Assembly (NCBI GenBank): GCA_950295325.1
Contig: OX485805.1
Location: 21,811,501-21,875,500, forward strand
Direction: 5' to 3'
Source: Polytrichum commune
Taxonomy: Eukaryota > Streptophyta > Polytrichopsida > Polytrichales > Polytrichaceae
Length of the DNA stretch: 64,000 nucleotides
The stretch's first letter is position 1. Each line of letters opens with the position of its first letter. A program made the position numbers and the translations under genes. Shown in pieces: positions 6,558-53,187 of this stretch. The notes beneath the pieces are model-generated. The model was not told where the DNA came from. It saw only the letters and a program-made list of their open reading frames with translations, and did not search any database.

Positions 6558-7218
6558 TTTCAAAAACAAATATGAATGTCAATTTGACATCTACATTTTC
6601 TTTTAAAATGTCACCTCAATGTCATATGCCTAGTAGTACTTGTCATTTCAATTTGTAAAGTGTCAATTGACGTGTGGTTTTTTTTCTTCACAAGTCAAAC
6701 CACATGTCAAAATATAAATTATGCGGGTCAATTGACGTGCATTTTATTTTTGTGAGTTTTTGTGTGTCAAATATCAAAAACTTGCAAAGACTTTGTGAAA
6801 AATACACACTAATTGGGGATCATCGCAAACTAAATAGTGTATTTCCTTCTGGCCAGTCACAAAATTTATTCCCTTCATTATGCTCTTGTCGATAATCGGT
6901 AGTCATAGGATGTGTGTACGGAACCTTAACCCTTGCATCTAAGAATGCTGTTTTGGTTTTCCCCAATCAGGAACATGTATTATGGCATGGGTGAGTCTGC
7001 ATGGTGAGATTGTGTTGTGGTTTTTTCAGCTTGCATTGTTTTATAATTTCGTAGAATAAAACTATGTGGGAATTTCTGAATCATGGATTTCATCAACAGT
7101 TGCTGCTGACAATTGTAGGGCACATCACAGCGAGTCTCAACAGGTTGTGCGGGATCCTTGTCGAATTTCTTGTGTTGAGCAGCTTGAATAGTCGATTCAG
7201 CTGCTCGAGGTTGTTGCC

Positions 7219-28360: not shown

Positions 28361-29767
28361 ATGGACAACGATGTCCATACGCTGACAGTTTTCCTAATCT
28401 TACAGCTCTCCTTGCTCACAACATTGGAGTGTATTGATAGAGACAGGGAGGCGATTTTACTATGGCACTGGCAACAAATAAGTGTCCTAACACTTGCACT
28501 GCATTGGTTTAAGTTGTGGAGTGGGAGACAATAATGACGTTTGTGGGCTTATGATCGGGGGTTGCACAGACCAGGATTCTTCGACCAAAATTTGTTGGGG
28601 TCATTCAATGCACGGGAATTCAAAGGGCGAATGCGTATGGACGTTTCGACTTTTGAGTATTTGTGTTGTATTCTCGCACCCGACTTGGAGAGACAAGACA
28701 CGAGATTGCATTTGGCCATTCCGATCCATGTGAAGGTTGCTGTATCAATTTCTAGATTGGCTACTGGTAATTCTATGAAGTGCATTGCCGATTTGTACAA
28801 GATTGGCCTATCTTCTAGTCAATTGGCAGTGTCCCAATTTTGTGGTGCCATTAAAAAACATTTGCTTAGAAAATTCATCAATTGGCCCTCTTCTTCCACT
28901 ATGGAAAGATATGCACGGAAATTCGAAGACCTGCACCAGATTTCCTACGTCGTGGGGGCAGTGGATGGCTTGCATATACCCATCATTGCACCCCAACTGC
29001 ATACTCCGGATTACTATAACCGCAAAGTATTCCATTCAATCATGTTGCAAGGTGTGGTGTCTACCAAATGTTTGTTTTGGGTTTTTGATATAGGTTGGGC
29101 GGGCTCTATGCATGATGCCAACTTGTGGGGTCGGACCGCCATTGGACAGTATTGTGAAGCTGGCAAGTTGTCACCTTACACTTTGGTTGGCGATGCCGCG
29201 TATCCATGTAGGCCCTGGATGTTGGCACCCTTCAAGGGCCACAAAGACGGCCTTACGCGAGAGGAATATTATTGGAACTTTGTACAAAGTTCTACCCGCA
29301 TGTGCGTCGAACGAGCATTCGGAATGCTAAAAGGTAGATGGCGAATTATTTTGAAGAGGGTGGATGTGCAATTGAAGAACATGCCCGACTTGGTTTCCAT
29401 ATGCTTAGTTTTACATAACATGTGCATTATTTTTAGAGACACGTTTTGGAAAAAAGAATGGATGCGAGAGGCCACGGACGAGGTGCACAACGGACTAGAA
29501 ATCCCACAAGTGTCGGGTTCGTCCATGCGCGAGCGAATGGCCGTGACGAACTTGACATTGCACAGCTTGGCCGGTATTGATGACGAATCACGAGAAACTC
29601 TAGAATACATCAAGCAAGAAGATGCTATGGCATTTGAAATTTCAATGAGCACCGCCGGAAAATCATTCAAAGAGTTGTCCGCAAGACGAAATGACATTGC
29701 AAGAAGTATTTGGATGGCAAAGACAAAGGCATCCATTGCTCAAACTTTCACTGATGGCGAGGAATAG
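28361..29767 (+). pseudogene. PIF/Harbinger DDE transposase with two in-frame stops
   Basis: From the ATG at 28361 the frame runs 1407 nt to 29767 and is interrupted only by adjacent TAA (28532-28534) and TGA (28535-28537) after about 57 residues. Downstream is a complete DDE_Tnp_4-type nuclease domain: GAVDGLHIPI (catalytic D202 counted from 28361), HDANLWGR, LVGDAAYPCRPW (D278) and CVERAFGMLKGRWRII (E317). Both stops are one C-to-T change from Gln (CAA) and Arg (CGA), which fits methyl-cytosine decay. An intron removing them is possible but no convincing GT-AG pair was found. A shortened protein starting at the Met in GRMRMDVSTF would keep the catalytic domain. With the MYB-like protein it should bind and cut the terminal repeats. 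Confidence 0.85.
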
Positions 29768-29911: not shown

Positions 29912-32900
29912 CTAAAAAATGTCCTCCTTGCGTTTGGGCTCGGGAAATTTTGATGTGCTCTCACCGCTCTTGTGTTCCATGGTGTTCGCGAACGATGGGC
30001 TTCCGGACTTCGGACCATCTGGCATCGTTGCACTCGCGTGCGCATGTGAAACAACATGTGCCCTATCGGACATGAACTCATCTACGAGTTGGTACCAACG
30101 ACATTTCTCGGAGCGGTCGGATCCTGATCGCATATTCATTGCCTTGTCCTCCTTGTAATCGTTGTAGATGGAACTCCATTTCTTCCTACAAGCCTCGCTA
30201 TCCTTTGTGAAATCCGGACAGAGGGACACAAGTTTCGTGTGCAGCCGGGACCAATTGTCCACACCTGCACAACGTTACAAAAAACAAATCATAATTTCTA
30301 TACACACACTGCGAATGACTCCTTGACAAATGGCATTTGAATTCCAACAAAATTGCGAATGAGCATTAAACACTATATTCGTTAAATTGAGAATTTTTGG
30401 GCATTTTGAGACATTCATAGAAATAAGAACAAGGATAAATGGAACACATATTGGTGAAAGTTGTAAGATGCGAACACTTTGAAGCATGTGTTTAGACCAA
30501 GAACCCCATTAATAACTCATATTTGTGATGGTTTAGGGTGGGCAACCCAAACCTTAGACCAAATTGAAGGGAAACCTTAAAACATTCATATTATTGCACA
30601 CAAAATATTAGAGCTTGTATGAATATGGTTTAGGTAGGGCAATCCAAACCATAGATCTTATTGAAGGGTTAATATGTTAACCAATATAATATTGCATACA
30701 AAATATTCCAAACTCATATTTGTGATGGTTTAGGTAGGGCATTCCAAACCTTAGACCATATGGAAGGGGAAATCATGTGACACTTATATTATTGCAAATA
30801 AAACATACAAAGTATGACATGTAAAATGCATAGCATGCTAACACCACACATCCATTGGATAGTGCGACCCAAAATGTTCTTGCCTATGGCCCAAAACCCT
30901 ACGCCTACTATGGCCTATCTAGCCTTGGAGAGTGCCTCTTTTTCTTTTGCTTTTGCCTCTTTTGCCTCTTTTTCTTTTGCTGCGGCTTCTTTTGCTCGCA
31001 TTGCTAAAACATTCCTGAAAATCTCCGCCCCGCGACTATAGCCATTCTTGGGGTGACCGCCATCAATAACTAATTTTGGATTCCGTCGGCCGCCCGAATT
31101 ATACGACGAAGATTTCGAATACGATGAAGTGGACTGTCTTGTATTTCTGGTCATGGAGTAGAAACGCTCCAACTCGACGGACGTACTAGCCCGCATAGGT
31201 TTACGGGTGGGACCAACCTGCAACGCGTGAATGCAAGAACACACGTGTTAGTTTAGGGAGGAAGACCCAAATGTGTCACACGTTCATTTTTTAAGTGCCG
31301 GATGATTGTAATGCGCGATTAACCATGTTTGGGGGGGGGGGGGAGTTCACCTTGTCACCGGGGGCGTTCCCGTCGGAGTTGGCGAGGAGGGGCAATGCGT
31401 CCCGCAAAGGAATAGGAAGGGTGCCACTCTTCGTAGGCCGAGCGCCCATCCGCAGCCGCCGTTGAGGTGTACTACTGCCGCCGGGCCGAGAGGGGGATGT
31501 CCGGACGCATTTGCGATTTATGCCCTTGAGCGGCGACGGGGACGGAGATCGCCGGAAGATTTGCTTGGGTGGGGGGCTATCGACGACACCGGCGTCAATA
31601 GGCTCCTTGGAGTAGTCGATGGTGGACGCGGCATCGTAGACGGTCTCGTAGAAGAAGCTCCCCAAGTTTGATTCGCTGATGATCTCAATCGAGGGCTCCA
31701 AACGCTGATGGCAAAATTAAAACAAACAAAATCCAAGGGGAGGGGGGGAGGGGGAGCATGTGAAAATCGATATACAATTGAGGCATAATATATCACACAC
31801 AATGACACACCATGTAGTATCTCAAATGAGTTTATTATATTTCGCGTGAGCGTACAACTCTCTGTACATATAGTCCTTCGGATCCATGTATCTTTCGCCT
31901 ATCGGATTACAACTAAGGAACCGGGGCACGGGTAGTCCGCTCCCCACGAGCGTTTGAAGGTACTTAAGTAGGTCTAACAAAAAGCGGTCTCGGACCTTCT
32001 CGACCGTCCACGTCGGGCAAACTATGAAGTTCGAGGTCGGGTTCAAAATGTTCTTGGAAGCGTTGTCGTCCACCATCAACATGTTGTCACGGGTGGGGCG
32101 AACGTCGTAGGGACAGCCGACCATGTTGGGGCGCTGGTCCCATACGATTGGCTTCAAGACCTTAAGAAATTGATTTACTGCGGGGTTGTTGGGTTTTTTC
32201 ACAACCCTGCCGTCGGAGGTGTATAATGTTTTACAAGAATCCTGTCCTAAGACCAAGCACGGGGGTTGGAGCCCCTTGAAGATGAACTCCACGACCGCAT
32301 GGGTGTTCTCGGACTTCATGAAGCTCCAAATGATCACCCACCATTTGGATAGGGCGACCTGTAGGAAGCGCCGAAGCCACGGGCGGAGGTACACTAGCTT
32401 GCTTTTGATGTACGCGGGGGGTCCATCGTAGTTGGCGTCCTCGGGCTTGCAAAAAGGTACCGTGGGGACCCTCGGACAATGCACGCACTGGACAAGGACC
32501 CCGTTGAGGTCTAGCACCAGGAACCGGGTCTTGGGAGGCAAAGGTGGCGAGGGCAAAATCGGGGGGACCAGCACGCTGTCCTCCACACTCCTCGGGGAGG
32601 ATCGGTGGGGAGCTGCGACGCTATGCTCCGAACCCTGCGGCGACGAGCGAGAGAAGGCGGCGAGGACTATGTTATGCTATGTCCATCTCAAGCAGAACGG
32701 AAATTTTGTGCAAACACAAGAATAATTGGACCATTGGTGGCAACAAAAACATACAAGGGGAACAACATACATTGGGACACGGATGCAAACATATGGGCGC
32801 CAAAAATAATAATTTTATTTTTACAAATCTCTATGTACAATTTGATGGGGGGGTGAACCGCGGTGAACTAGCCATTCACACTATCCTAACTGTGCATCTA

Positions 32901-35900
32901 CAAAATTGCATGTAAGCGCCGCGCAATATCGAGCGTAGTCGAGTGCAGGGTGACGAAATGATCGCGAAGGGGGGCACTGAAGGGGCGCAGGTATTGGACA
33001 TATGGGCATCGGAAGGCCGGGGTGCAGTTCCTCCTAGCTAGGGGGACAAGACCACGCCAACAAGACAATGACCAAGGAGGTTTGGGTCGATCGACCCAAA
33101 CTGAGAGGTCTCAGTGTATTACCTCGCCCTGGTCATGTCTCGATGCCGTGGAGGGCTCCATCGGCTGCGCTGCCCCTCCTCTCTCTCCAGCGCCTTCTTC
33201 AACGACATCAGCAACCTTCTCCTGCAAAGGTCCAGGATCAGGCCCTTGTCCTAAACCAATCTCCGCATGTGCATCATGCATGGGTTCATCAACTTGGTTA
33301 GGAGTAGAGGTATCACCATGCCCTTGCAGGCCTTCAACATCTAACATGGTTGTGTCTTTTTCACACCCATGTTGGTCAAGGGACGACTGTCCTGCACCAA
33401 GGTTTGGGTCACCCGACCCAAACTGTCTTGCATCGGGGTAGTTCCCTTGTGGCACTACACACGGGGGGGTGTTTGGGTCATCCGACCCAAACATTCGGGG
33501 GTCGTCATGCTGGTGAGGGGGAGCTATCACTATGGGGGGCCGAAGTGGTGGAGGCCCCAAAGGAGAGGAGGCTCCAGAGACACGCCAGATGCTGGGATCG
33601 TCCACTTGCTGGACCGGCAGGGTTGTCTATTGTGTCGTGACGGAGGCTAATCTCGGCATAATGTCGTGCTGTCACGACACGTATCCGTCACGACATTATG
33701 CCGGATGTTGTCTTTATCCTGACAAACTTGAATTTTACCGAATTCTGTGTGTAATTACATTACCCCATTTCGGACACGTAGGATGTAAGATGTCCATGTG
33801 TGATGACATGTCAGCAAAGTAGAGGTAAAGTGGGGGGAAAATTACTAGTGCCCGTCCACCCCCCGTCCGCCGCCGTTCCCGACCCCGTCCGCCGCCATTC
33901 CCGACCCCGTCCGCCCCCGTTCCCAACCCCCGTCCGCAAAAATAAAATAAAAAATAAAAACCATGTTCCCCCCCCCCCCCGTCCGCGCCGTTCCCGCCCC
34001 CGTTCCCTCCCCCGTCTGCCCCGTTCCCCCCCGTCTGCCCCACCCTCGTCCCCCGTCCGCCCCACACCCTCCTTAGTCATATTTTACTACTTTGATTTTA
34101 ACAGAATGATAAACATAATGGCAAAATGGTTTACCTGGCGCTAAGCATATCCACGTCCACGTCGGCCTTTTCTGCCACATAGGACGCCACCTTGGCAAGA
34201 AGGTAAGTATTTTACCCACCCTACTAGCTTCCCCCTAGGTTGACCCTACGTGGACCCTATTGTGTCGTGACGGAGGGGTCCGTCACGACACGACACGTCA
34301 TGACGGCACGACACCGTCATGACGTCGGGATAGACAACCCTGTGGACCGGGGCGTAGGGGACATTGTGTGGCCGCATCATGTGTTGGAAACTGAATGACG
34401 CTTGCGGCACAGACTGTTGAGGAATGCTCTGGGCAGGGAAGCCGGCGGGTAAGTGCGGAAAGGCGCTCGAGGGAGCCACCACCAATCCTTGCGCCCACAT
34501 TCCTTGAATGACCTGCGATATCAGGTCGGCGCTGGATGGAGGTTGGGCCATCGCCCTTTGTCGCTCCTGCTCCAATAGGAGAGCCCTCAACTCTGCTACC
34601 TCGTTCCGCATTGAGGGTTCTTCTGCGGCAACCTTCTGCATGCGGACTCGCTGCTCTTCGTCCCTCCGCATCTTCTCGTTCGCCTCCTCCACAGTCAGGA
34701 CTTCTGGTTTCACCCTAACCATGCCTGCGAACGATGTCGGGGAGGGGGGATCCGATCTCAGCCGTTTGGCGAGATCCATATCGTCCTCGTCCTCGCTGCT
34801 TATGGCGATGGTCTCCTCCCTTGCGTAGTCGCTGTAGAGCTTCTTCCCTTTCAACTTCCTCCTCTCCCTGAACGTTGCTGTCGCATCCCTGGAGTACATG
34901 TCTCTAGCATCGTCCACCGTGAGGACGGGCACCAACTTGCTTTGCGGGGTTGCCACCCGCATAGCTTTCTTCCGTTGGGGGGCTTCTGATTCTTGCGTGT
35001 AACCCGTTGCTCCTTCTTCTACCTCCCCTTCCGCCTTATGGTCCTCTTGTTCCTCTTCCTCCTCCTCCTCCTCCACCTCGTCACCTGGCCCCCGAGATGA
35101 GGTACCCGGATGCAATCCTACAAGTGGTTCGGGTGCTCCAACTGGAGCACTCGTGGCAAATTCTGCAAGGTTGACACGCCTTGCCCTATCCATCGGGTTT
35201 TCACCCCCCTCTACAATCTCCTCCATGTAGCTCCCCGGGATCCAATCGAGGATGTCCATCTTCTTGGCTAGGACTTTTTGGGTTTTGTAAAATTGAAGAT
35301 CATTGTCCTCTATATAGGAGTACATCTTCAAACCCAACATCTGGACATTCAAAAAACAACTTTGGATCAGAGATATGCTCATTAAATTACACCAAGAACA
35401 AGAAAAAGAAACAATAAGAGAAAACCAATACAAAAGGTTTGGGTCGCTCGACCCAAACCATCACTGTGGCAAGTTTGGGTCGCTCGACCCAAACTATAAA
35501 CCAACTATTTTGAAGTTACTTACCATGCCAGAATAGATAGGTTTGGAACCCCCGAAGACGTTGAAAATAGAATCCCCTCTTCTTGTCAAGGCCCTCATTA
35601 TCCGTAAGTAGAACTCCATCCGCAGCTCGTCGGCAGTATAGTTCGCGTACTTGGCCTCGTCGTAGAGGCTCTTGCTCGCACCCAACCCCTCTGGTACTTG
35701 GAAGAGTTTTTCCATCCGGTTTATGGGGTGGTTGTCGACCTTCAGCAAGTTCGCTTTGTATACAAAGTACAAACACAATACGTCGACAAGCTTTGTTTTT
35801 TTGTCCTTCAACGTCGAGTAAGACCCCTCCGCCGGTGCAGCAATGTAATGAGATTTAGAGACAGCATAATCAGGTTGCAATTTCCTCGCAATCTCATATA

Positions 35901-38900
35901 CCTGCTCCGCCCTCCTATCCTCGACTATCCACAACCAAATGTCGACCTCCCTAAATTTGGGACTTGCATAGTCGACGAACTTTGATAGGAAGGGCTCATA
36001 GAAGGGGGTGCTCATAGTACCCTCAAACGAACTTCCAGGAATGTTCCTGAAGTCTATCATCCCAAAGGGGAATCGATCCCCAGCATTCGTCCTTATCGCC
36101 TTGCGAGCCTCAATGCCAGGCCACCCCTGGATTTTTAGAGGCTCTATGGTGACAAGGTTGAAATGCGCGTCCCCCTCAAAACTGACAATTTTCTTCTCCT
36201 TTATGAAATTCGAGAAGACACGCGCTGTGTGATCGGGAAGTGCCCGATTCTTCCCACCTTTCACCAGCTTGGACCGCAGGAAGTCTTCCCCCGCTTCCCT
36301 GATGAGAGCCGCCATAGATGCACTTGTGAACTTGTACTCTGCCTTGAATGCTTTCCAGTTTGCGTCGTGGACCTCGCCATCCACAAAAAGGTTCATTTCG
36401 GGGACTATCTTGTGCAACTCTTGGACGATGGTGTTCTTCTTCTTCTTATTCTCCGTCCATTCCTTCATGGTGTAGCATGAAGGAACGAATGATTTAGGCT
36501 TGGAGAAGACTATCTTTGGGTGCGTCCAACATCTCTTTGCCGTGGGCTCGACGTGCAGGATGTGCGTGGCCGCCTTCCCCATGTCTGTCTCCGAAAGCCC
36601 TTGGAGTGTTCGAAAGAATTCTCTCATCAAAGGTTTGAGCTGCTTGAAACGTGCGGTCAAGTTGAAAAGCAGGCCTGTGTCGGGATCCATCAGGTCCCCC
36701 GTCTCGTGCTTCTCGAACACGTTCTTCCACTTCGACCAGACATGGTCAGATGCTGTTATCAAATAAATTTCTCCTCGCAACTCGTTATATTTCTTTTGCT
36801 TGTGACTCGCATTGTCAATGGAAGAAAACTTATTGATCATTTGGTACTTGAAATACTGCACATAAACATAGAAATTTATGTTAGATATGTATATGTTAGT
36901 TGGACATTTGCTTAGATGAAAAGGCTTGAATATTAACTCTTACAAGGGTTTCGGTCGATCGACCCAAACTATGAAACAAAACAAGAGTTTGGGTTGGTCG
37001 ACCCAAACTATGAAACAAAACAAGCGTTTGGGTCGATCGACCCAAACCACACTCACCTCTCACTTTGGATTCTTGTCCTTCGCATTCTCCCTCTCCTTGG
37101 GAGGCCTGCCGTAGAACTCCCACACCTCGCGTGAGGCCATGATGTTGCGAATCCACGAAGCTTGGTATGCCCGTTTCGTGTTCCCCATATTGAAGTAGCG
37201 GGAGATGTCACTGAGTCTGGTTTCGTCATCTGACCACACCACTAAGGCCTTCCACACCTTCAATTTATCTTTTTGGTTATTGGGATCATCCCACTCGGCC
37301 ATGAGTTGGATTTTCTTCGATGCTTCCACGCTGTGTTGTCCGTCAATTAACCAAAAATCGCCTTTTTGAATTGATGGCCACATATCCGGAGTGGGCATTT
37401 TTTTGTGTCCCTGGGGCATGACTACAATAGTTTGCCTATCGTCTTTGAATTGCTCGCTCACTATCTGGGCGATTATCCAATCGACGTAGGCATCTTCCTT
37501 TGCCCGAACACACTTTTCTGGTGGGGCTAGGTGACACTGAGCAATATTGATGTCAAATTTGAAGTCCCTACCCATGAAGAAACAGTGAGAACACTTGGTC
37601 GTGAAATTGTTCACGATTCTTTGGATCTCAGACGCATCCACTTCTTGTCCGGGCTTTGGCATGCGCAGTTCTGGGGAAACTGGCTCGTCCGTCATAACCG
37701 ATGCCGATTCTCTTTGCCTCTTTGAAGGAGTTGTCTGACGGCTGTTTGATGGCGTGGGTGTCTCACTATCCGCCGGTGTTGCCGTAGGCGTGGTTCTTCT
37801 TGAGTCAGCCGGAACCGCCCGCGGCTTCCTCACTGTTTGAGGTCTGGACGAGCCCGCGCCTTCTTCTGTTGTGGCCTTCCTCCTCACCGGCTGTTGTGAT
37901 TTTGACTTGCTCTGTTGAGCCTTGTTTAATGCGTTGATTACTTGCTTAAGCTTTGTAAACCTGGATGCCACCTTTGTGTTTGAAATGCTTCCATCTATGA
38001 AGATAGACTCTAGTTTAATAACCTCTGGCTCAATGCAAGTTTCTTTTATGTACAGGGGGTCAAATGCCTCGGAGAATTGATGCATGAACATGTGCGCATT
38101 CTGCATTGCAGAATTCTCGAGTATGACGTCCACGTAGTCACCTAGAGCCTGTACTGACGCCACCTCCCACCCCGTCAAAGTTGCCCATGTGTTTTGATCC
38201 ACTGTCCCAACTTTCACCACAAAGAGGATCTTGAATTGAGATGCCTTCACCACTTGGAGAGACCATGCAATCACCAGCCCATCCTTAGGTACATAAGATT
38301 CATCTTCAGGTGTCTCGTGTTCCTGCCAAACCACATCTGGTGTGAGCATGAACCATCTCTCTCCAGGTCTTTTTTTGGGGGCCATCTGCAAGAAAACGAC
38401 AACGCTGTTAGTTTCGGTCGTTCGACCCAAACTATTATCTATGTATATTAGCATGTAGACGGGAATAACTGATGTCATATATGTTGAGGTCACGAATTGG
38501 CAGGTTTGGATAGATCGATTTGTCTTTTGGCAACTTTCATATTTTTTAGATATAAGTGTACATCCCAAAATAGATCTGTATAATAAATTTGTTTCATGAG
38601 ATTTTATTTTATTGGAACGATATGAATATGTTTTGCCATGGTTTGGGTCGCTCGACCCAAACCAACTTTTGTGTTTGGGTCGCTCGACCCAAACCAGCTG
38701 TTGTGTTTGGGTCGCTCAACCCAAACCAGCTGTTGTGTTTGGGTCGTTCGACCCAAACCAACTTTTGTGTTTGGGTCGCTCGACCCAAACCAGCTGTTGT
38801 GTTTGGGTCGCTCGACCCAAACCAGCTGTTGTGTTTGGGTCGTTCGACCCAAACCAACTTTTGTGTTTGGGTCGCTCGACCCAAACCAGCTGTTGTGTTT

Positions 38901-41900
38901 GGGTCGCTCGACCCAAACCAGCTTTTGGATTTGGGTCGCTCGACCCAAACCAGCTTTTGTGTTTGGGTCGCTCGACCCAAACCAGCTGTTGTGTTTGGGT
39001 CGCTCGACCCAAACCAGCTGTTGTGTTTGGGTCGTTCGACCCAAACCAGCTTTTGGGTTTGGGTCGGTCGACACAAACCAGCTGTTGTGTTTGGGTCGCT
39101 CGACCCAAACCAGCTGTTGGGTTTGGGTCGCTCGATCCAAACCAGTTTCCGTACACTGAAACAATAAAGATTAGTTGTGAATAATATGTATTCTCGACTA
39201 ATTCTTGTTGTTTCAATTTACGATCGTTAATGATTCATTGCTTATTATGAAATGATTGTTATAAAATGCTTATTAAATGATGCTTATTATATAATACATT
39301 TGATAGAATGCTTAGAATAGAATGCTTAGAATAAGTAAAAGAAAAACAAACTTATGCACCAAAAACGTTACCTGTTCTTGGAAGCTTTAGAAGAAGCTTT
39401 TCTTGCAAACTATAAGTATAATTCGAATCTGAGAAGCAGTTGTGCTCTAATCTCACAAATACTGGAAACTCTGTTGAACCTTAGAGAGCTCTACAGACGA
39501 AATGAACAAAACTTTCAATGTCGCAACACTCTGTGTGTAAAGGTAATAAGATTTGAAGACCCTAAACCCTCAACACTCCGAATTTCACAAACTCACAACC
39601 CTCAAAACTCTGAATCTAATCCTTCAAGCTATCACCAATCTGATAATAAACCCTCAGCACTCAACACTATAAAGCTCTTAAACCCTCAACACTCTGAATC
39701 TAATTCCTTCAAGCGTCAACAATGTAAATGCTAAACTTCAACACTCTAAACTCCACACTCTAAACTCCACACTCTAAACTTCACAACCTTCAACACTGTA
39801 AAGCTCACTCCTTCACGCTATGAACATTCTAAAGCTCCTAAACACTTCACACTCTAAATCCTTAAACCCTCCACACTCTGAAACGCACAAAGTATCAATA
39901 CTATTACGAGTAAACCAAGAAGAAGAATCACACAATAACCTATAGCATCTATACTCGCACGATAGAAGACCAGAATGTGGAATCTACATGCTCTACCAAG
40001 AGAATGGAGGGAGGAAGAGAATGGAGGGAACGCGTCACTTCGTGGAGGCGGCGCTTCAAAAGAGGCGGCGCTTCCAAGAGCAGCGCGGAGCTCACTTGCG
40101 GTGAAGAGGTAAAAAGACCCGGGTAGGGCAACCTTTCGGGTTTTGTTCCCCTCGGGAAAAGGCCCTAAACCCCGGCTTTAGGGCACCCCTTGAAACTCTA
40201 AACCCACGCAAATAGGTTCACGGGGCAGCTGTAATCCCTAAACCCTTACCACCCGACCTTTGGCGGCATTTAATTTCTTCCGAAACAGGTACATATCTTA
40301 AGGTTTTCACATAATTTTCAATTTTCCAAAGTATTTGAACTTATAGGCTCCTAAGTTGTTTACCGACTTTAGATTTTAAGTAACACAAATTATTTCACAT
40401 TCATCTTTGTCATCTGTGTTAATCATCTTTCCCAACTCCGGTTTTAATGTATTGAATTAGATTGTCCTTGATTGGGATTGCTTAAATTGAAATTAATCCA
40501 TTACGTGCTTTATAATTTGACATGTGTAGACATATGGAATCACAAATGCTCAAAGGCAATTACACGGTTTAATACTATTAGTATGGTACCATTTGTATGG
40601 TTTGATAATATGAATACGTATTTTTATTTATGTGATGCTTAATGCTGGAGGACAAGGCTGTAGCCTATCATAGATCACTTAAAAGTAGCTTTACACTAAT
40701 TCAATTATACAAGTTTATGTATTTTCAATTATTCTAATATGGAATCACGCTAATTGTATTCATACCTTATCATAGTTTTTTGTCAAAAAGAAAAAATCGG
40801 TTGTTTGATTTATATCATGGAACATGAATATATTTATATGGAAGTTGTCATTTAAAGTAAACAAGAGAAGCATAACGATTAAAATTGTAACCCCTGCACC
40901 CCCTTGGAGTTCAACATCATATGAAGCCATTGAAGCAATCACTTTGTTGGTCAATGGTCGTTACACATATACTAGGGTTTAGGGTTTAGGGTTTAGGGTT
41001 TTCAAATAAGAATAACAAATTGGGACTTGTTGCACCACAAGCCATAAATGATTGGCACATAGGTCAAATGATGAGGCCTCAGTGCATGCAAAATTATTTA
41101 CAAATGTATTTAGTTATGACAACATTTCAATTCAAGGACATGGAATATGGTTGTGTGGTCGTTTACAAGAAAATTCAATAAAGCAAACATACGATCTTGT
41201 GGTTACAATCAAGTCATCCTTAGTATGAGGATTCTAATAACAAGATTATAGTACATACAATCTTTATCATGTTAATATCTTATTTGAGATAATTTAACAC
41301 TATATACTTATGAAAGGTACGTGATATAATTTTGTGAATGTTATAATGACATACATTTCCAACTTTACATGCTTTGGTCACAAACACTACTAAAGATAAA
41401 ATGGATTTGAGGATAAGTTCAAACATCCTTGGAAGAGTGGAGTAGAAAGTGTTATGTGTGCTTGGAATTTCTTAAATAAAAACAATAAATTGGGACTTCT
41501 TGCACCACAAGCCATAAATGATTGGCACGTATGTCAAATGACGGGGCCTTAGTGCTTGTAAATTTAAATACAAATTTTTTTAGTCATGACCACATTTTAA
41601 TTGGAGGATGAGAAATACGGTTGTGTGAACGTTTAGGGTCTAAACTCACTACAGCGACCATGTGATATAGTGGTCATAATCAGGTCATCCTTAGTACGTG
41701 GAGACTAATAACAAGGTTATAGTACATACGATCTTTATCATGTGAATATGTTATTTGAAATATTTACACATTATATACTAATGAAAGGAACATTTGATTT
41801 TGTGAATGTTATGAGGACATACATTCCCAACTTTGCATGTTTTGCTCATAAACAATGCTAAGAATAAATTGTATTTGAGGATAGGTTCAAACATCCTTGG

Positions 41901-44900
41901 AAAAATGAACTAGAATGTGACATTTGTGCTTGAAATTTCATTAATGACTTCCACAAAGGTTAGTCATTGTCATAGTTGCATGCTTGAGAATGGAGTAACG
42001 TTGTGTGCACACTTTACAAATGACATATTGTGAGCTTTAAGAGTTTTTTCTCATTTGCACAATGTCATGTTTGTTTTTTGTTGTTAATATTATATATTTC
42101 CTCTTTTGATGGTCTCATTAGCTACTTTAACGGTTGTATTTAGTGACTTTTACCATATGGAGTTAAACGATGTTGCCACATTTTTGTCAAAATAATTGTT
42201 AAAATATATTATAATGTTTGAGTTCAAATAGAGTAATATCTTGCAACATAATTTATTATGTTCCTTAGATGGATCAAAGGGAAGTTGTTCGGAATTATTT
42301 TCTAAATCTTATATCAGATCTACATTTCCTTTAATGCACTTGTTAAAATACATGCCGCTACTACCTTTCCTACCAATGGTGCAAGTCATATTCACTTAAA
42401 AAAATAGAAAACGGATACAATATCTCAAATAGTGACAATACATATTTATTCTACATACAGAATATATGTGAACTCAGATAACTTGATGGTTGGGGCACCG
42501 AAGAGCCACCCTTAGTACACATTTTCTATTATAATCACGAGGTGGGAAAGTATGTCAGAAAGTTTGAATTACCGGCTAAAGGGGAATCAAGCGGGAAAGG
42601 TATCCAAGAGGAAGCAGGGCAGCGGATGCGGACAGTATAAAGGGCCAGCCTCCCCGAAAAGTCGGTCCTTTTTGCTCATCTCCCTCTCCAGAAATTGTAG
42701 CAAGCTCTCTCACTTGGAGCTCCACTACAAGGTTAGAGCACACTAGCATTCATGAGCAAGCAATCACAACATTCATCCATGATTTTTATTTCCCTACATA
42801 TACTATATTTAGATTTCACCATATTCACGCCGCATTATACGGCATATTTTACGGACAGTTTGGGTCGCCCGACCCAAACCTATCCCCACAGTGGCCAGGT
42901 AGTAGGGTTGACTCAGAGCCCATCCCCCCCCCACATAGTTTGGGTCGGTCGACCCAAACCCTTCTCCACAGTGGGGAAGTACTTGGGTTGACTCCGAGCC
43001 CATCCCCCCCTACATAGTTTGGGTCGTTCGACCCAAACCTTTCTCCACATTGGGCAGGTACTAGGATTACCTCAAACCCCATCCCCCTTAGATAGTTTGG
43101 GTCGGTCGACCCAAATCCTTTCCCACATATTGCAGGTACTAGGGTGGACTCTGAGCCCATGTCCCTCCTACAAGGTTTGGGTCGGTCGACCCAAACCCTT
43201 CCCCACAGTAGGCAAGTACTGGGGTTGACTGAGAGCCCATCCTCTCCTACATAGTTTGCATCGTTGTTGCCAATTGTTTCCAAGGGATAAATTGAAGGCC
43301 ATCCGCGAAGAAATGTGGCTTGGAGATTTCCGTCTAAGATCCACAAAAAAAACTTGATGTCCATAGGGTGATACATGTGAATGGGACGGGTCGCAAGGTA
43401 ATCACCATGGAAAGCATAAACGTGTGTTGTAAGGCATGGTACACCATTCACGGTGTGTCGAAGGCGGACTTCTATAGACAAGCTGCTTATGCCAAGGAAG
43501 GTCGCCGGTCCCGTCACCATGGGAACGTGGATTTAAAGAAACCTAGGGAAGCAACAAGACAAGCAACGGCCACTCTAGCAACCATCATTGTCCCCCTTGC
43601 CGATGCAATGCCGCACAAAACACGTACACTCACAACCGGTGAAAAGGTTGTGGAGAAAGTTCTTCCCACATGCACAAAATGGAAAGACATATTGTTGGAC
43701 GTGAATGCAGTTGGCGAGAAGATTGGGTTGGAGCCAATTTCATTGTCAAAATTGAGTGCAATAAAGAAAACAAGCTTTAGTGAATACATTACAAAAAGAC
43801 GAGGGGACAAATTTGCCCGGTGCTCTAATTGCGAAAAGTTGAAGCGTCTTCGGGATGCACACACGATGGGTACCGAGTCATATGCGGCACATCAATTGAA
43901 CTATTTCAAACACGTAAACATGCAAGAGGCACACCGTAATGATTACTACACAAATAGAGCTTTGTCCATCTCTAGGCCATTAGAGGTTCTCACGGTCATC
44001 CATGACAAAATGGATCATGCCAAAATAGCCTCTCCATGTTTTGCAAATCGAATCAAGGCCACGGATGGGTTTTTTAAGTTGCTTGTATCGGTTACAGGTG
44101 AAGTGTGAAACAATGTCATCACATACCCTAAATGTTGTGGTGTTTCATTACGTGATGTACTAGAGATCATGGATTAATTCAAAATGGTTTATTTATACAT
44201 AGATACTAATCACGTTGGGTTGGCATTGCAGGAATGATTGCACATGGACACGGTGATGTCAAGTTTGCTCATTACGCTCTTGATTTGTATCCAGCGGATT
44301 CAAACCACACGATAGGATCATTTGCAAGGCTTTTGCGTGATTTAGAGAAACCGCCAGCCTATTCTTCAGGATTATTATTTGAGAACACGGGTTCAACACC
44401 TCTATATGAAGCGGTGTTGGATGGAAAAGATGTATGCTTGCATTCGTTGCCAGAGCCACCCAGTGAACCCGTGATCGCCAAGAAGTTGCCCCCAACTTTA
44501 CGTGTCCAATTGGACAATTGTGCCAAGGACAATAAAAGTAGATATGTATTTGCATATTGGTCGTTGTTGGTTGCGAAAGGCATTTTCAAGGAGGTTTTTG
44601 TGTCCTTTCTATTGGTAGGCCACACGCACGATGATATTGATGCATCTTTTGGGCGATGGAGCATGAAGTTGCGGGAGGAGGATTTTCCTACAATCCCGTT
44701 ATTGATGAAATCGTACATGGATTTGGAGAACATTCCCGTCATCCCCCATATGATCGAGGAGGTGCCAGACTTCAAGGCATTTATAGAACCTTATATTCGA
44801 AGTGGAGCTCACCGATTGATCGGGCATACGAAGGCACAACAATTCTGCTTCTATATGCGTGACGATGGTGTCCCGGTCATGCAATACAAGTTGTTGTGCA

Positions 44901-47447
44901 CGACACAAGACTGGAGCCCGCCGGAGGGTCTTCTTGTGTGGCGCGTGGATGCGGATGGAAAGACCATGTTACCGGATGGGGAGCCTAGGCCTTGCAAGCC
45001 AATAGCCATGAAGAATTTGGAGGATATTTTGAAAGGTATATCAGGCTTCATACAATATTGGGAGAGTTTGAAAATAGCGGATGTTGGCGGATCATGTTGG
45101 CATCGTTATGGGAGTTGGATACATTATTGGACACGTGTTCGTGCCGCCTTGGCAGACCTCCACCAAGATAGCCCTCATACTTTGAGGCATGGATTTTGGC
45201 CACAAACACGAGTCGATGTACAAGCTTCGGAGCCTAGTCTTTTGGGAAATGGAGAGGTTCGAGAGGAGTTTGATGTGGACGACCATTACGTGGGGCCTGC
45301 TAGTAGTCGTCCCCCACCATCTTTCCGCATTGCAGTGGATTGTCATGAAGGTTATATGCTCATTTTGCGTCCTGGAGACGAGACATATGCAAAGCCAGTG
45401 TGGGTGGCAAGAGCTTTGTCCAAACCCAATTTTGTAACTTCCAGCCCTCATTTTCGACAGATACAAGTGGAGTACTATCGACCGACAACACGGAATGAAG
45501 ATGTTGTTCGGCATTATACAGGCTGGGATACAAACCCTAACTTTCGGTGGAAGGTGGATTCTGAGCACGGTCCATCTTGGGTAGATACAGATTCCATATT
45601 CATAGCATGGAAACCACGGAAAAACCATAGTGGATCAGTGTCCATCCCTCAAAAGTACATAACTTTTGCAAAAGACAACCTTACTCGGATTGCACAAGAA
45701 GCAACCCACGTTGAATGAGAAGTTGGTAGGATTGTGTTAGCATGATTATAGTTTAATACGTAATTATAGCAATATAAATTACACATATGTGTGTTCTTCA
45801 AAATTGGGGCAGAGTTTGGGTAGAACTTACGAATACTATATTGTTTGGAGTTGGATGAATATCCATTTACTATATTTCAAAGAAAATTGAAGTTCATCTT
45901 ATTATTATGTTTGGGACTATATTGTCGAATGAAGAAATATGCATTTATTACATGCACTTTGTATGTTGCAATGTCTATATTCTATTGAGCATGCTAATAA
46001 TAGAAATCATTTTATATGTTTTTTGGGTGGAACTTGTTTGGAGTGCTCTAGCCAATGTGTTTTTGTTGATGAAGTTGGTGTCGAGTGCTCTACCATATGT
46101 GCTTATGTCCGCACATCATAGATTTGGGATATTAGAACATATAATATAATTGAGATTGTTGACAATATAGTTTCGGGCCTCTTCAAGTTCTTTGATCCAT
46201 ATATTAATTTGAGACTAGAGAAAGTCTCAATTTAACGAATATAGTGTTATTAATAATATTGAACGATAAATTATCCTAAATCCATACTTCTGTGGAATAG
46301 AGGCAGAGCAAATTACAAACATAAACATGCTTATATTTAATTTGAAAATATATTTTGTGTGTGGTAACAGGGAATAATATGCGAGAGAGAAAACTTAACG
46401 ACAGCAGGTAAAAAATCGATGTGCAGCAGACTGCAGATTCCCGACTACAGAGGCATTGCAGTCTGCTGTATAAAAAAACAGAGTATATTTACGAATTCTG
46501 AGGGCCCTGGAATACAGTCTGCAGACAGGTAATATTCTTTAAAGGCTGCTGCTGCCGCCTTGCACAGTCTGCAGGCAGTTTACAGGTAGTTTTATTATAT
46601 ACCAGCCTATTTGTGAAAAACAGATTGCAGCTTTGTGTCGAATTACAGAAAATAACCAATTCCAATGGCTAAAAAATGAATTTCAGTTGCAGGCAGGAGA
46701 TACACAAAAAAAATAAAATTGGTTTCAACAATTTTGCATACTATCACTATATTCGTTAATTAGATACTTTCTCTTCTTTGCAAGTAATATATGGACAACA
46801 CCAACATGGTGCAATGTTTGGGGTTGTCCTACCTAAACCATGTTGGCTTGCATTTCCTAAATGGGTTCTCGATATGAACACCCGCTTCAAATAACTCTTG
46901 ATCGACCACACTTATAATGAAAAGCACAAAAGAATAAAAAAAACAAGAAAAAAAATTCAAGAGGCACACCTTGCTTGAATGCGTTGAATGTGTTTTGCAT
47001 CTCCCCCCGAAGCGAAATGAGTTGAATGACCCAGTGGTCCTTCCAATGGTGAGCATGCTTCAAGAGCTCCACATCCTCTTTGGCATCGTCCAGTTCCACA
47101 ATTTCCGGTTTCCTTCGGGGGGCTCTTTTTTTCTTGATGGACTTGGAGTGATCAATGACTGGGTCATGGGGGCCTCGTTTTGGTGGTTCTTCAGTGAGAT
47201 CAATTGTGGCACTAGGAGTGCCTTGGGCGGGAGCATTGAAGCCATACCCTGGAATTGGAGGCATGTAGGAATGGGCATATACAAATGGCAATTGATTCCC
47301 CACCCCCGGAAAGCCATGAAAGAATGGTGCGGGAGCAATGGGAGGACGTGGCCCTGAATTTGGAGAGCATGGGATAGGGGGGATTCCACCCGTCACAACA
47401 CTCGCATTGCCACCACCCGCTTCCCGCAAATTACCTTGTGACTCCAT
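29912..47447 (-). CDS. Harbinger MYB/SANT-like DNA-binding protein split by a 16.7-kb intron
   Basis: Exon 1 is 47447-46970 (478 nt) and exon 2 is 30264-29912 (353 nt). Joining CAAG|GTGTGC to TGTGCAG|GTGTGG keeps the frame and gives 276 residues. The join completes a MYB/SANT (trihelix-like) domain: HWKDHWVIQLISLRGEM and FNAFKQ from exon 1 continue into GVDNWSRLHTKL, then CRKKWSSIYNDYKEDKA. The N-terminal half is Pro/Gly-rich. A nuclear localisation signal (KKKRAPRRK) lies before the MYB region. In PIF/Harbinger elements this second protein brings the transposase to the nucleus and the element ends. The intron (30265-46969) contains the whole inner 15.9-kb element, so correct expression would require splicing it out. 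The reading frame itself is undamaged. Confidence 0.82.
30915..31704 (-). CDS. Unknown Pro/Ser-rich coiled-coil protein, two visible exons
   Basis: Exons 31704-31351 and 31217-30915 join at GACAAG|GTGAAC and GTTGCAG|GTTGGT in phase 0. The first exon follows a good acceptor (CCATCAG), so a further 5' exon is likely; its start is not found. The first part has acidic and Pro/Ser-rich stretches (PPPKQIFRRSPSPSPLK). The end is a Lys/Glu/Ala-rich predicted coiled coil (residues of the type AKEKEAKEAKAKEKEAL). No family is recognised. It lies directly downstream of the FCP1-like gene on the same strand and could be the 3' part of that transcription unit, although no in-phase join was found. Confidence 0.45.
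31822..32586 (-). CDS. FCP1/NIF-like HAD-superfamily protein
   Basis: An open frame of about 254 codons encodes an FCP1-homology (NLI-interacting factor) fold. The motif I segment is FLVLDLNGVLV, where the usual DxDx(T/V) has Asn in place of the second Asp. This variant is also seen in a plant group of FCP1-like proteins and may lower phosphatase activity. Further family segments are YLRPWLRRFLQ, WWVIIWSFMK and the C-terminal NMLMVDDNASKNILNP. No ATG precedes motif I in frame: the frame opens at a GTG and extends to a TAG near 32680, so a 5' exon is probably missing from this model. Family members dephosphorylate RNA polymerase II tails or other proteins. Its presence as cargo in a transposon is unusual. 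The HAD fold is confident; activity is not. Confidence 0.68.
   Translation of the reverse strand: MEDSVLVPPILPSPPLPPKTRFLVLDLNGVLVQCVHCPRVPTVPFCKPEDANYDGPPAYIKSKLVYLRPWLRRFLQVALSKWWVIIWSFMKSENTHAVVEFIFKGLQPPCLVLGQDSCKTLYTSDGRVVKKPNNPAVNQFLKVLKPIVWDQRPNMVGCPYDVRPTRDNMLMVDDNASKNILNPTSNFIVCPTWTVEKVRDRFLLDLLKYLQTLVGSGLPVPRFLSCNPIGERYMDPKDYMYRELYAHAKYNKLI
33080..33101. repeat. 22-bp palindrome, perfect copy in intron
   Basis: Arms GTTTGGGTCG and CGACCCAAAC around AT make a fully symmetrical 22-mer. It lies about 20 nt inside the intron that follows the 33123 donor of the ParB-methyltransferase-like gene. Two weaker copies, with TCA in place of TCG, lie in the coding exon at 33402-33423 and 33471-33492 and are translated there as FGSxDPN. 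Confidence 0.9.
33618..34342. mobile_element. hAT-type MITE (725 bp) inserted in an exon
   Basis: Both ends are CAGGGTTGTCTAT inverted repeats, and the 8-bp duplication TGGACCGG flanks them (33610-33617, 34343-34350); both features are diagnostic of hAT elements. Subterminal GTCGTGACGG / CCGTCACGAC repeats give extra hairpins. The centre holds a CCCCGTCCGCC-type minisatellite. It has no coding capacity. Removing it with one duplication copy restores the host reading frame (PYAPV then QQVDDPSIW). Confidence 0.92.
35437..35494. repeat. Two 22-bp palindromes in intron 2 of the ParB-methyltransferase-like gene
   Basis: Copies at 35437-35458 and 35473-35494, both with CT at the centre, lie inside the intron 35523-35341. 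The second begins about 29 nt from the donor. Confidence 0.9.
36948..37047. repeat. Three 22-bp palindromes in intron 1 of the ParB-methyltransferase-like gene
   Basis: Copies at 36948-36969, 36987-37008 and 37026-37047 are spaced 39 bp apart and joined by ATGAAACAAAACAAG. The last starts 9 nt from the GTGAGT donor. Confidence 0.9.
38411..38432. repeat. 22-bp palindrome next to the ATG-exon acceptor
   Basis: One copy with a single arm mismatch (GTTTCGGTCG) lies about 25 nt upstream, in gene sense, of the acceptor that precedes the ATG at 38385. Confidence 0.85.
38641..39152. repeat. 16-copy array of a 32-bp palindrome-bearing unit
   Basis: Sixteen units of exactly 32 bp, each a 22-bp palindrome plus a 10-bp linker. 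The linkers are CAGCTGTTGT, CAACTTTTGT or CAGCTTTTGK. In the first nine units the CAACTTTTGT linker recurs every third unit, giving a 96-bp higher-order period. The palindromes vary only at the centre and a few arm bases. The array probably lies in the 5' intron of the ParB-methyltransferase-like gene. Because the period is not a multiple of three, long open frames exist on both strands; they are not genes. Confidence 0.95.
39153..40200 (-). other. Probable 5' intron and leader of the ParB-methyltransferase-like gene
   Basis: The stretch 39560-39890 is a low-complexity repeat of AACCCTCAACACTCTGAATC / CACACTCTAAACTC type. 39950-40130 is pyrimidine-rich on the minus strand and looks like a plant 5' UTR. 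No protein-coding exon is seen. The transcription start near 40.1 kb is inferred from composition and from the divergent gene layout. Confidence 0.35.
40974..41001 (+). repeat. Interstitial telomeric repeat, four AGGGTTT units
   Basis: Four perfect Arabidopsis-type telomere heptamers stand in the intergenic space between the two divergent cargo genes, directly abutting the 470-bp tandem duplication. In plants such short telo boxes also occur in promoters. Confidence 0.9.
41001..41940 (+). repeat. Tandem duplication, 470 bp x 2
   Basis: Anchors such as ATTGGGACTT-TTGCACCACA and CATAAATGATTGGCAC repeat at 41021 and 41491. Copies run about 41001-41470 and 41471-41940 at roughly 80-85% identity by eye. 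They are non-coding. Confidence 0.8.
42636..42642 (+). promoter_or_regulatory. TATA box of the DUF7869-like gene
   Basis: TATAAAG sits in a locally GC-richer stretch, followed by a pyrimidine-rich leader and a plausible donor (CTACAAG|GTTAGA, 42731/42732). This would give a non-coding exon 1 spliced to the coding exon that begins near 43255. It is inferred from layout only. Confidence 0.4.
42858..43253 (+). repeat. Five-copy 79-bp array carrying palindromes and splice-acceptor-like ends
   Basis: Palindromes start at 42858, 42938, 43017, 43095 and 43175, spaced 78-80 bp. Each unit continues with CCACA-TGGG-AGGTACT, then GGGTTGACTC and GAGCCCATCC, and most end in (C)TACATAG|TTTG. The unit end at 43254 is the apparent acceptor of the DUF7869-like coding exon, so the array seems to be amplified 3' splice-site DNA. 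Confidence 0.85.
43255..45718 (+). pseudogene. DUF7869-like protein, candidate transposase, with one frameshift
   Basis: Two coding exons, about 43255-44097 and 44232-45718, join at TTACAG|GTGAAG and TTGCAG|GAATG in frame (VTG then MIAHGHG). The product would be about 770 residues. The core contains VIHDKMDHAK, then VQLDNCAKDNKSRYVF, then FLLVGHTHDDIDASFGRWS, the ordered Asp-rich motifs of the DUF7869 family found in many TE-like proteins of plants, oomycetes and animals. The pattern suggests an RNase H-like nuclease, though this is inference. A Cys pair (CSNCEKLK) could bind metal. The C-terminal half has a chromo/BAH-like look (PVWVARALSKPNF...QVEYYRPTTR) without a firm match. The N-terminal part (REEMWLGDFRLRSTKK) is one base out of frame because of an eight-A run at 43345-43352. 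Confidence 0.65.
45719..46969. other. Right end of the inner element and remaining MYB intron
   Basis: 45719-46248 is the 3' flank of the DUF7869-like gene and ends in the inner-element inverted repeat. 46253-46969 is leftover MYB intron with repeated CAGTCTGCAG-type words at 46420-46580. No gene is seen. Confidence 0.45.
46745..46773 (+). repeat. Third, decayed copy of the inner-element terminus
   Basis: CACTATATTCGTTAATTAGA followed by TACTTTCTC resembles the right terminus (46225-46248 and its inner neighbour CTTTCTC) in opposite orientation. No partner end is seen before the MYB donor, so it is an orphan terminus. Confidence 0.6.
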
Positions 47448-52900: not shown

Positions 52901-53187
52901 CTACAAGCACACACGGTATGAGCAGAGATTCTAAAGCGATTGAGTGGCTTTCGATTCCTGCTGCTGATGTCTTTCGTGTATCTAAATCGCCTAGCTGCAT
53001 TCAATGTGAATGTTGCTTTACGCCACGGCCTTATCCATTCTTCATCTATATGTTTCCAATCATATTGCTTAAATGGATCCTTCGTCCACTCCTCTGCGAA
53101 TCCCTTGGTACATTCTGTGGTTTGCCTTGACCACCATTTGTTCGTCTCCTGGCTTCCACCATGTGGATACATCCTAGAGGTCGTCAT
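49903..53187 (-). CDS. ACA: Type IIB (ACA-type) Ca2+-transporting P-type ATPase, copy 2
   Basis: An intronless 1094-residue paralogue of the pump at 7219-10533, in inverted orientation. The ATG at 53187 starts a different N-terminal leader (MTTSRMYPHGG), then the shared calmodulin-binding autoinhibitory region (RPWRKATFTLNAARRFRY). The phosphorylated Asp is D470 in CSDKTGTLT. PEGLPLAVTL, KGAAE and TGDGTNDAP are all present, so it should be active. From the phosphorylation site to the end only a handful of residues differ from copy 1, and a 230-nt stretch compared base by base (9001-9230) has one difference. The first 420 residues differ much more, most strongly in the N-terminus and around the third membrane span. 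The last residues also differ. This mosaic suggests gene conversion. The 5' and 3' flanks of the two genes are not obviously alike. Confidence 0.97.
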   Translation of the reverse strand: MTTSRMYPHGGSQETNKWWSRQTTECTKGFAEEWTKDPFKQYDWKHIDEEWIRPWRKATFTLNAARRFRYTKDISSRNRKPLNRFRISAHTVCACRRFRFRKVTPTDAIVVDSSILVQLLQDRRLEDLQKLGGVEGLANSLQTDLENGLDENEEQMQKRRDSYGANTYPKKTTQGFWSFVWDACKDTTLIILMVCAVISLATGMWTEGVQKGWYEGTSIGVAVVMVIAVTSMSDYKQGLNFRNLNKEKENIQLLVLRAGQRQMVSIFDLVVGDIVPLSIGGQVPADGILVEGHSLSIDESTMTGESLPVKKDKSKPFLLSGCKVQDGQGAMLVTGVGLNTEWGQVMASISEDNGDETPLQVRLNGAATLIGKAGLLVAVVVLIILIIRYFAITFKNASASNKTAMKVIKELVHIFSIAVTIVVVAVPEGLPLAVTLTLAYSMRKMMADKSLVRKLAACETMGSATTICSDKTGTLTTNKMTVIKAWLGGEMRDEDNAVLLNTLPPTLLQKLAQSICLNSNGTVSPPKADAEPVVTGSPTEAAVLSWGIKLGMNFKQLRHENEILHVETFNSEKKRAGVVYKTVEGDVELHWKGAAEIILELCTWWIDSTGERRPMTEGKREELKTVIEGMAAQTLRCIAFAYRSIDGAAIPSGEEARSEWKVPDSELTLMAVAGIKDPCRPGVREAVEKCQRAGVKVRMVTGDNIFTAKAIAAECGILTEGGLVVEGRDFRTWDDARLDKDLDNLEVMARSSPLDKLKLVKALKERRGDVVAVTGDGTNDAPALKEADIGLSMGIAGTEVAKESSDIIILDDNFTSVVKVVRWGRSVYANIQKFIQFQLTVNVVALTINFVAAVSSGQVPLTAVQLLWVNLIMDTLGALALATEAPTDDLMERAPVGRTEPLITNIMWRNIFGQAVYQIVVLLTLTYAGIGLLGLQGTRADQDLMRNTIIFNAFVFCQLFNEVNARRPQELNVFEGIHKNYLFMGIIGATVFFQVIIVTFLNQFADTTKLPLKWWGLCIAIGFVALPLAALVKCIPVTKKPILEISCFPSKSCFRLKRRRKNYESADEFSSHRQSRCNTKAQETATPAANITIH

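Follow-up and report, generated by a model that had tools for sequence, protein, structure and literature searches.

Palindromes that diverge together with a ParB/methyltransferase-like gene in a giant DNA transposon of the moss Polytrichum commune

Positions 30369-46248 of a 64,000-nucleotide stretch of the Polytrichum commune genome (assembly GCA_950295325.1, contig OX485805.1, positions 21,811,501 to 21,875,500; the whole stretch is called the window below) are a damaged copy of a giant DNA transposon of the cut-and-paste type. This element carries a DUF7869 gene, an FCP1-like phosphatase gene (NIF) and a gene whose product resembles ParB and methyltransferases (MTases) in its motifs, together with arrays of a 22-bp palindrome. 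The palindromes stand upstream of genes and in introns, are specific to their family, are conserved, and diverge together with the ParB/MTase-like gene: a second family in the same genome has another palindrome and a different ParB/MTase-like protein. The best explanation, which we consider probable from sequence comparison, is that the element is a Sola-1-like giant transposon of a moss, with DUF7869 as its transposase and the ParB/MTase-like protein as a self-recognition factor that reads the palindromes.

A sequence-only reading of the window had claimed a perfect 24-bp inverted repeat and an ATTA duplication bracketing the element, and a check of the sequence found exactly this, with AACACTATATTCGTTAAATTGAGA at both ends and ATTA bordering each. 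In the genome (407.8 Mb in 64 contigs), at least 40 copies match the first 132 bp of the element with 97-100% identity, 40 having been scored out of 815 first-look candidates. We examined the ends of 21 copies, comprising the window, 10 copies fetched over 20 kb each and 10 fetched at both expected ends, with 19 further copies of the 132-bp set left out. The right terminus was located in 11 of the 21, giving lengths of 15.9-18.3 kb, and all 11 have a perfect 4-bp duplication (ATTA, CATG, AAAT, ATAA, TAAA, AACA, ATCT, TTGT, CTTT, AACA and ACAA) with no evident consensus. Both 24-bp repeats are perfect in 10 of these copies, the remaining one having a single mismatch at its right end. In the other 10 copies, 4 fully fetched and 6 fetched at their ends only, the right terminus was absent from the searched stretch; of the 4 fully fetched, one was merely cut by the end of the fetch and three contain long unrelated stretches. 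The full-length copies compared share ends, 4-bp duplications and gene set, and the check proposed with the sequence-only reading thus comes out in favour of one transposon family. Target-site duplications of 4 bp are a feature of the Sola (Sola-1) superfamily, to which the element likely belongs as judged from published descriptions. In one full-length copy (C3:37712400, L011-L012), element blocks 3250-5484 are inverted or displaced relative to the window, with the ends (one mismatch) and the 4-bp duplication kept.

The palindrome GTTTGGGTCGNNCGACCCAAAC has a 10+2+10 layout with a CG-NN-CG centre. About 30 palindromes had been noted in the sequence-only reading, and a scan allowing up to two mismatches counted 30, all at 33080-43196 inside the element, with none in 100 dinucleotide shuffles. 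Exact matches number 9231 in the genome and 0 for the reversed-pattern control. All eight copies counted carry palindromes in introns 1 and 2 and in the upstream regions of both the ParB/MTase-like and the DUF7869 gene; exon 2 held none in any of the eight, and exon 1 none except one in a single interrupted exon. Array periods vary among subfamilies (such as 32, 35, 57 and 79 bp), and the two central bases are variable. In six diverged copies, the 66 columns of the window's three exact intron palindromes are 93-100% identical as compared with 40-60% for other intron columns, and in a close sister copy they are 100% identical as compared with 98% and 79%; these values come from global alignments of short introns, in which anchoring of the aligner on the palindromes may add to the contrast. 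The only exact half-sites of the window beyond the element form a longer-loop inverted repeat at 13780-13814 (AAGTTTGGGTCGAGC-ATTTT-GCTCGACCCAAACTT).

A second palindrome code was read from homologous proteins. Homologues of the MTase exon comprise 42 proteins (P0121-P0162) 61-92% identical to the window, 13 (P0163-P0175) 36-39% identical and four others, and a search with the joined ParB/MTase-like protein returned 3 environmental proteins only. Many homologue open reading frames (ORFs) continue into the following intron, and 182 collected proteins were scanned for peptide images of candidate palindromes, which had been chosen after reading these read-through tails by eye. The image of GTTTGGGTCGNNCGACCCAAAC appears in 16 proteins (13 of the 42 in the first group and all 3 joined-query matches) and that of a different palindrome in 5 of the 13 second-group proteins, with no cross-over between groups. 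Enumeration of all 10-base half-sites gave a unique solution for each main set, GTTTGGGTCG and TTTACGAACG. The second code, TTTACGAACGNNCGTTCGTAAA, was deduced from the introns of environmental group-2 homologues before the genome was searched for it; it is found exactly at 2909 places, with 0 for its reversed-pattern control, and no match with up to three mismatches lies in the window. The first-group protein P0144 (69% by BLAST on the MTase exon) shows FGPxGPN twice in its intron, a GTTTGGACCG-type variant with 64 half-site solutions that is perhaps a third palindrome variant. The tails of the more distant homologues P0177-P0179 yielded no readable palindrome.

In the moss genome, the two codes were found apart: of 58 loci, 8 contain group-2 palindromes, 19 different ones contain group-1 palindromes, and none contains both. 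ParB and MTase exons, expected from the cluster spacing at C1:2464600-2467700, are both present there, 35% and 34% identical to the window's. At this locus (L055), the second palindrome stands upstream of the ParB/MTase-like gene and in both introns, and the group-1 palindrome is absent. The MTase exon lies inside or at the edge of two of five group-2 clusters (picked from 100 listed places, all below C1:2.55 Mb), and both MTase exons scored below C1:2.55 Mb lie in or at the edge of group-2 clusters; the stretch C1:639364-643453 (L049-L054) has group-2 palindromes but no match to the MTase exon. The group-2 ParB/MTase gene has at least 86 copies (the best 86 of 1177 candidates scored), 67 of them without a stop. 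Many of the group-2 MTase exons scored have identical scores and open frames, which suggests a recent burst of this family.

The transposase gene and the terminus are common to both families. Beside the group-2 cluster C1:2266900-2270200 lies a DUF7869 gene (L057) that is 73% identical to the window's over 278 last-exon residues and 63-69% in the preceding exon, and 650 bp beyond it, at the one end that was read (L058), the first 17 bases (AACACTATATTCGTTAA) match those of the window's element and a similar subterminal hairpin is present. No DUF7869 gene was found beside a further group-2 cluster (L056), making one positive in two stretches searched. As the families share transposase and terminus but differ jointly in palindrome and ParB/MTase-like protein, the simplest interpretation is that this protein reads the palindrome; each family may accordingly label its DNA with an address of its own. 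The palindromes might instead be host-factor sites or a selfish satellite spread by slippage, with no element-encoded reader, and many of them do lie in tandem arrays that slippage could expand. However, the repeat units around the fixed bases differ among subfamilies while the fixed bases are kept, the intron palindromes outside long arrays are conserved too, and two codes with the same layout, tied to separate protein lineages, coexist in one nucleus; this alternative strikes us as quite unlikely.

The DUF7869-like and FCP1-like genes proposed from the sequence are both recovered by Pfam, with PF25273 matching 44210-45715 on the plus strand (E 9e-42) and PF03031 matching the NIF exon (E 5e-13). 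DUF7869 conserves HDKMDH, Q(L/M)DN and GHTHxDID, the D of QLDN being separated by 40 residues from the first invariant D of GHTHxDID. The closest named homologues of the window protein, from Ceratodon and Physcomitrium, are ~50% identical, and its best PDB profile match is a weak one to a cellulase (E 0.14). The protein is likely a DDE/D transposase, and DUF7869 would thereby gain a likely role. Comparison of copies indicates that the long minus-strand ORFs between the NIF and DUF7869 genes are three exons of one gene, the ParB/MTase-like gene. The exon 1/intron 1 junction and the exon 2 start are held by 9 of 11 copies, and the exon 2 end and exon 3 start by 10 of 11 (window included in both counts), with GT or AG in each. 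FW(L/I)IDGQHS is present in four proteins aligned from both families.

Substitution patterns indicate that the main genes have been maintained by purifying selection between subfamilies. The comparison used six diverged copies, in part over shorter stretches. The MTase exon has a synonymous divergence (dS) of 1.6-1.7 and a ratio of nonsynonymous to synonymous divergence (dN/dS) of 0.06-0.07, the coiled-coil exon has dS 1.8-2.1 and dN/dS 0.07-0.08, and synonymous sites of the ParB exon are saturated. For NIF the values are dS 0.73-0.81 and dN/dS 0.21-0.23, and for DUF7869 just 0.15-0.49 and 0.10-0.17; these differing ages of the element's parts indicate exchange between copies. Antisense control frames gave dN/dS of 0.5 and ~2. 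The close sister C6_4371 has higher ratios, 0.21-0.80 for the main genes, on few changes. Two minus-strand pieces left of NIF, 30918-31247 (dN/dS above 1 against five of the six diverged copies) and 31294-31716 (0.36-0.61), are doubtful as coding sequence.

In the mechanism we propose, the DUF7869 transposase would act on the shared termini and generate the 4-bp duplications. The divergently transcribed ParB/MTase-like protein would bind the 22-bp palindromes upstream of both genes and in its own introns, probably as a dimer, and once bound may keep the element's chromatin open or mark it as self, thereby allowing transcription of its genes. At these sites, the FCP1-like phosphatase may act on Pol II. 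The exact sites occupy introns and regions upstream of genes rather than the ends, so they are more likely to serve expression or chromatin than strand transfer. A more specific version, which we hold tentatively and would not back at even chances, is a ParB-derived, parS-like addressing system, in which a probably non-catalytic protein of ParB/methyltransferase fold loads on dozens of palindromes and coats only its own family against silencing. Families would then diverge through joint change of protein and palindrome, with transposase and termini retained, leaving several mutually exclusive codes in one nucleus.

Several observations weigh against the proposed self-recognition role. The co-divergence rests on two well-sampled codes and one weaker variant (P0144), and the genes of group 2 were found piecemeal, at two clusters, rather than together in a complete element. 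Two one-mismatch palindromes lie within the coding tail of exon 3, and each of the eight copies in which the ParB/MTase gene was read, window included, has at least one lesion. In addition, all seven full-length copies have 3-5 imperfect relatives of the palindrome (such as GTTTAGGTAGGGCAATCCAAAC) 160-1180 bp from the left end. The best of these in the window has 4 mismatches, as compared with a best of 6 in 200 shuffles, and similar stretches occur at the right end of a group-2 copy and in a relic terminus in the window (GTTTGGGATGTGCCATCCAAA, GTTTGGGGTTGTCCTACCTAAAC). Another protein, perhaps the transposase, may therefore see a similar sequence, and the imperfect relatives may serve as subterminal sites for the transposase and have given rise to the internal palindrome.

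These relatives bear on the alternative in which the DUF7869 transposase binds the palindromes and the ParB/MTase-like gene is cargo unrelated to them. Binding to subterminal repeats is common among transposases, and one palindrome array lies directly upstream of the DUF7869 gene; on account of the left-end relatives, we slightly raised our estimate for this alternative and slightly lowered that for self-recognition. Nevertheless, no palindrome with up to two mismatches lies within 2.7 kb of the left end or 3 kb of the right end, and the rule that picks out the imperfect relatives finds none in the final 1.2 kb of the seven full-length copies. Moreover, palindromes are located in the introns of the ParB/MTase gene, and between families the last DUF7869 exon (73%) and 17 bp of the terminus are kept whereas the palindrome changes and the ParB/MTase protein retains 34-35% identity. 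Transposase binding as the function of the palindromes is thus unlikely in our estimation.

The identity of the ParB/MTase-like protein also counts against its proposed role. The protein matched none of the ParB and methyltransferase models in Pfam, NCBIfam and PHROGs at E <= 10 (HMMER filters drop most matches above ~0.1; PADLOC was not searched). Since no domain library searched recognises the protein, "ParB" and "methyltransferase" are motif readings by eye, and it is to this extent that the label given in the sequence-only reading stands. GD.IFNVFGGSK and, after the splice, LGL..YSYIED resemble MTase motifs I and II. DPPY/F/W is the catalytic motif of N6A/N4C methyltransferases, and where DPPY is placed all 24 aligned sequences have DFRxIP, which makes ordinary methylation catalysis doubtful. 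A version of the self-recognition explanation, compatible with it, is that the protein methylates adenine or N4-cytosine at the palindromes, an activity already proposed for the algal proteins. The resemblance to motifs I and II would suit such an activity, as would the domain reading in Ectocarpus (PMC12477816), whereas the missing DPPY motif and the missing profile match make it rather unlikely.

Elements of this class are already in print. The main text of PMC12477816 describes Ectocarpus Sola1-1_Ec32, a 21.5-kb giant Sola-1 transposon with terminal inverted repeats (TIRs) in which the transposase and a ParB-methyltransferase gene are on opposite strands, and refers to comparable cases in algae; such proteins of algal transposons have been proposed there to bind and mark their own element. 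The moss element is likewise a giant TIR transposon with a ParB/MTase-like gene opposite its likely transposase, and differs from that of the brown alga in its FCP1-like gene and palindrome arrays; neither "palindrom" nor "phosphatase" occurs in that main text (PMC12477816). The family had been put forward as undescribed and its gene set as unmatched among described plant families. It is a real family, and no published description of it or of its palindrome code was found in the literature searched (Repbase and most subscription papers were outside its coverage), although its class has been published and the gene set has an algal Sola-1 precedent (PMC12477816). The same literature yielded no published binding sequence for ParB-methyltransferase transposon proteins. 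The palindrome code is the new part.

VANDAL elements are Mutator-type (MULE) transposons with 8-10-bp duplications, in contrast to the DUF7869 gene and 4-bp duplications of the moss element. In Arabidopsis, dense family-specific motif arrays in noncoding VANDAL DNA guide VANC, the anti-silencing protein that the element encodes, and their evolution proceeds through tandem repetition; the 9-bp motif is YAGTATTAY, and VANC binding and hypomethylation have been reported (PMC5735166). The moss palindromes are similarly short, family-specific, dense in noncoding DNA and introns, grown in tandem and changing with the element's protein, but the protein is a different one, the motif is a two-armed palindrome of 22 bp, and binding is a proposal from sequence (PMC5735166). 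ParB-CTPase folds are fused with methyltransferases in phages and archaea, a likeness in domain combination; in the moss protein the GxxR P motif reads GQHS, DPPY is missing and the setting is a eukaryotic transposon (PMC12704722). Fungal DNA transposons encode TET/JBP dioxygenases, likewise transposon-borne genes possibly acting on the element's own epigenetic state, with another enzyme and other superfamilies (PMC12730594). In the moss, the genome itself displays a candidate recognition sequence in two forms that differ along with the protein, making transposon self-recognition testable with short oligonucleotides. If the proposal is true, a VANC-like anti-silencing strategy would exist on a different protein fold in an early land-plant lineage.

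Two further element classes were tried and rejected. PIF/Harbinger elements make 3-bp TNA duplications and encode a DDE_Tnp_4 transposase, whereas the duplications here are 4 bp and the DDE_Tnp_4 ORF of the window lies outside the element. Polinton/Maverick elements make 6-bp duplications and encode a protein-primed polymerase and an integrase, and no such family was among the Pfam matches of the element ORFs scanned; the duplication length likewise differs. The size of 16-18 kb and the FCP1-like gene might also fit an endogenous virus or Polinton, and ParB-like folds occur in phages too (PMC12704722). However, no capsid, polymerase or packaging family was among the Pfam matches of the scanned ORFs, and a viral origin was rejected on finding no match to the MTase family or the palindrome in viral contigs; such an identity is exceedingly improbable. 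The palindrome also had no match in a collection of 84,980 prokaryote species. Features of the element are collected in Table 1.

Table 1. Coordinates of element features in the window
Feature	Position	Strand	Basis
Left target-site duplication ATTA	30365..30368		Sequence
Left 24-bp terminal inverted repeat	30369..30392	+	Sequence and copy comparison
Three imperfect palindrome relatives near left end (such as GTTTAGGGTGGGCAACCCAAAC, 4 mismatches)	30531..30749		Motif scan
NIF/FCP1-like phosphatase gene, main exon	31825..32676	-	PF03031, E 5e-13; dN/dS 0.21-0.23 vs 6 diverged copies
Three palindromes: one exact directly after stop codon, two one-mismatch in coding exon 3	33080..33492		Motif scan
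ParB/MTase-like exon 3 (possible MTase motif II, acidic stretch, coiled-coil tail)	33111..35340	-	Copy comparison; interrupted here by a miniature inverted-repeat transposable element (MITE)
725-bp hAT-like MITE nested in exon 3 (TIR CAGGGTTGTCTAT, 8-bp duplication TGGACCGG)	33618..34342		Without counterpart in closest sister C6_4371
Two palindromes, intron 2	35437..35494		Motif scan
ParB/MTase-like exon 2 (methyltransferase-like; FNVFGGSK, DFRNIPG; GD.IFNVFGGSKPIY)	35524..36855	-	Splice sites across copies, homologues
Three palindromes, intron 1 (one exact, two one-mismatch)	36948..37047		Motif scan
ParB/MTase-like exon 1 (FWLIDGQHS)	37057..38385	-	Copy comparison
17 palindromes upstream of ParB/MTase-like gene, 16 in 32-bp-period array	38411..39142		Motif scan
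Five palindromes (~79-bp period) upstream of DUF7869 gene	42858..43196		Motif scan
DUF7869 exon, N-terminal Cys-rich part	43240..44097 (start approximate)	+	Copy comparison
DUF7869 last exon (QLDN, GHTHDDID)	44232..45718	+	Pfam PF25273, E 9e-42; dN/dS 0.13-0.17 vs 6 diverged copies
Right 24-bp terminal inverted repeat	46225..46248	-	Sequence and copy comparison
Right target-site duplication ATTA	46249..46252		Sequence

Damage specific to the window copy includes an in-frame TGA at the penultimate codon of exon 1, where all eight other copies with the region have TGG. In the DUF7869 N-terminal exon, an A-run of 8 in the window as compared with 7 in the sister shifts the frame (the comparison covered 4 of 9 copies); the longer run could be an assembly error.

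The element had been placed exactly inside one intron, which was not confirmed, no spliced host gene model having been made across it. The nearest gene on its left, a PIF/Harbinger-type DDE_Tnp_4 transposase ORF identified by Pfam at 28538-29764 (plus strand), stops ~600 bp before it, and the insertion may have taken place within or next to a Harbinger copy. About 490 bp to the right of the element, at 46741-46838, a lone terminus (CACTATATTCGTTAATTAGATACTTTCTC, with subterminal GTTTGGGGTTGTCCTACCTAAAC) resembles the right end of the same superfamily, and no partner for it was found within the window. The window also holds two long open, apparently intronless genes for Ca2+-ATPases with an N-terminal autoinhibitory domain, at 7192-10533 (plus strand) and 49903-53196 (minus strand), which lie in inverted orientation and are 95% identical over 2910 bp.

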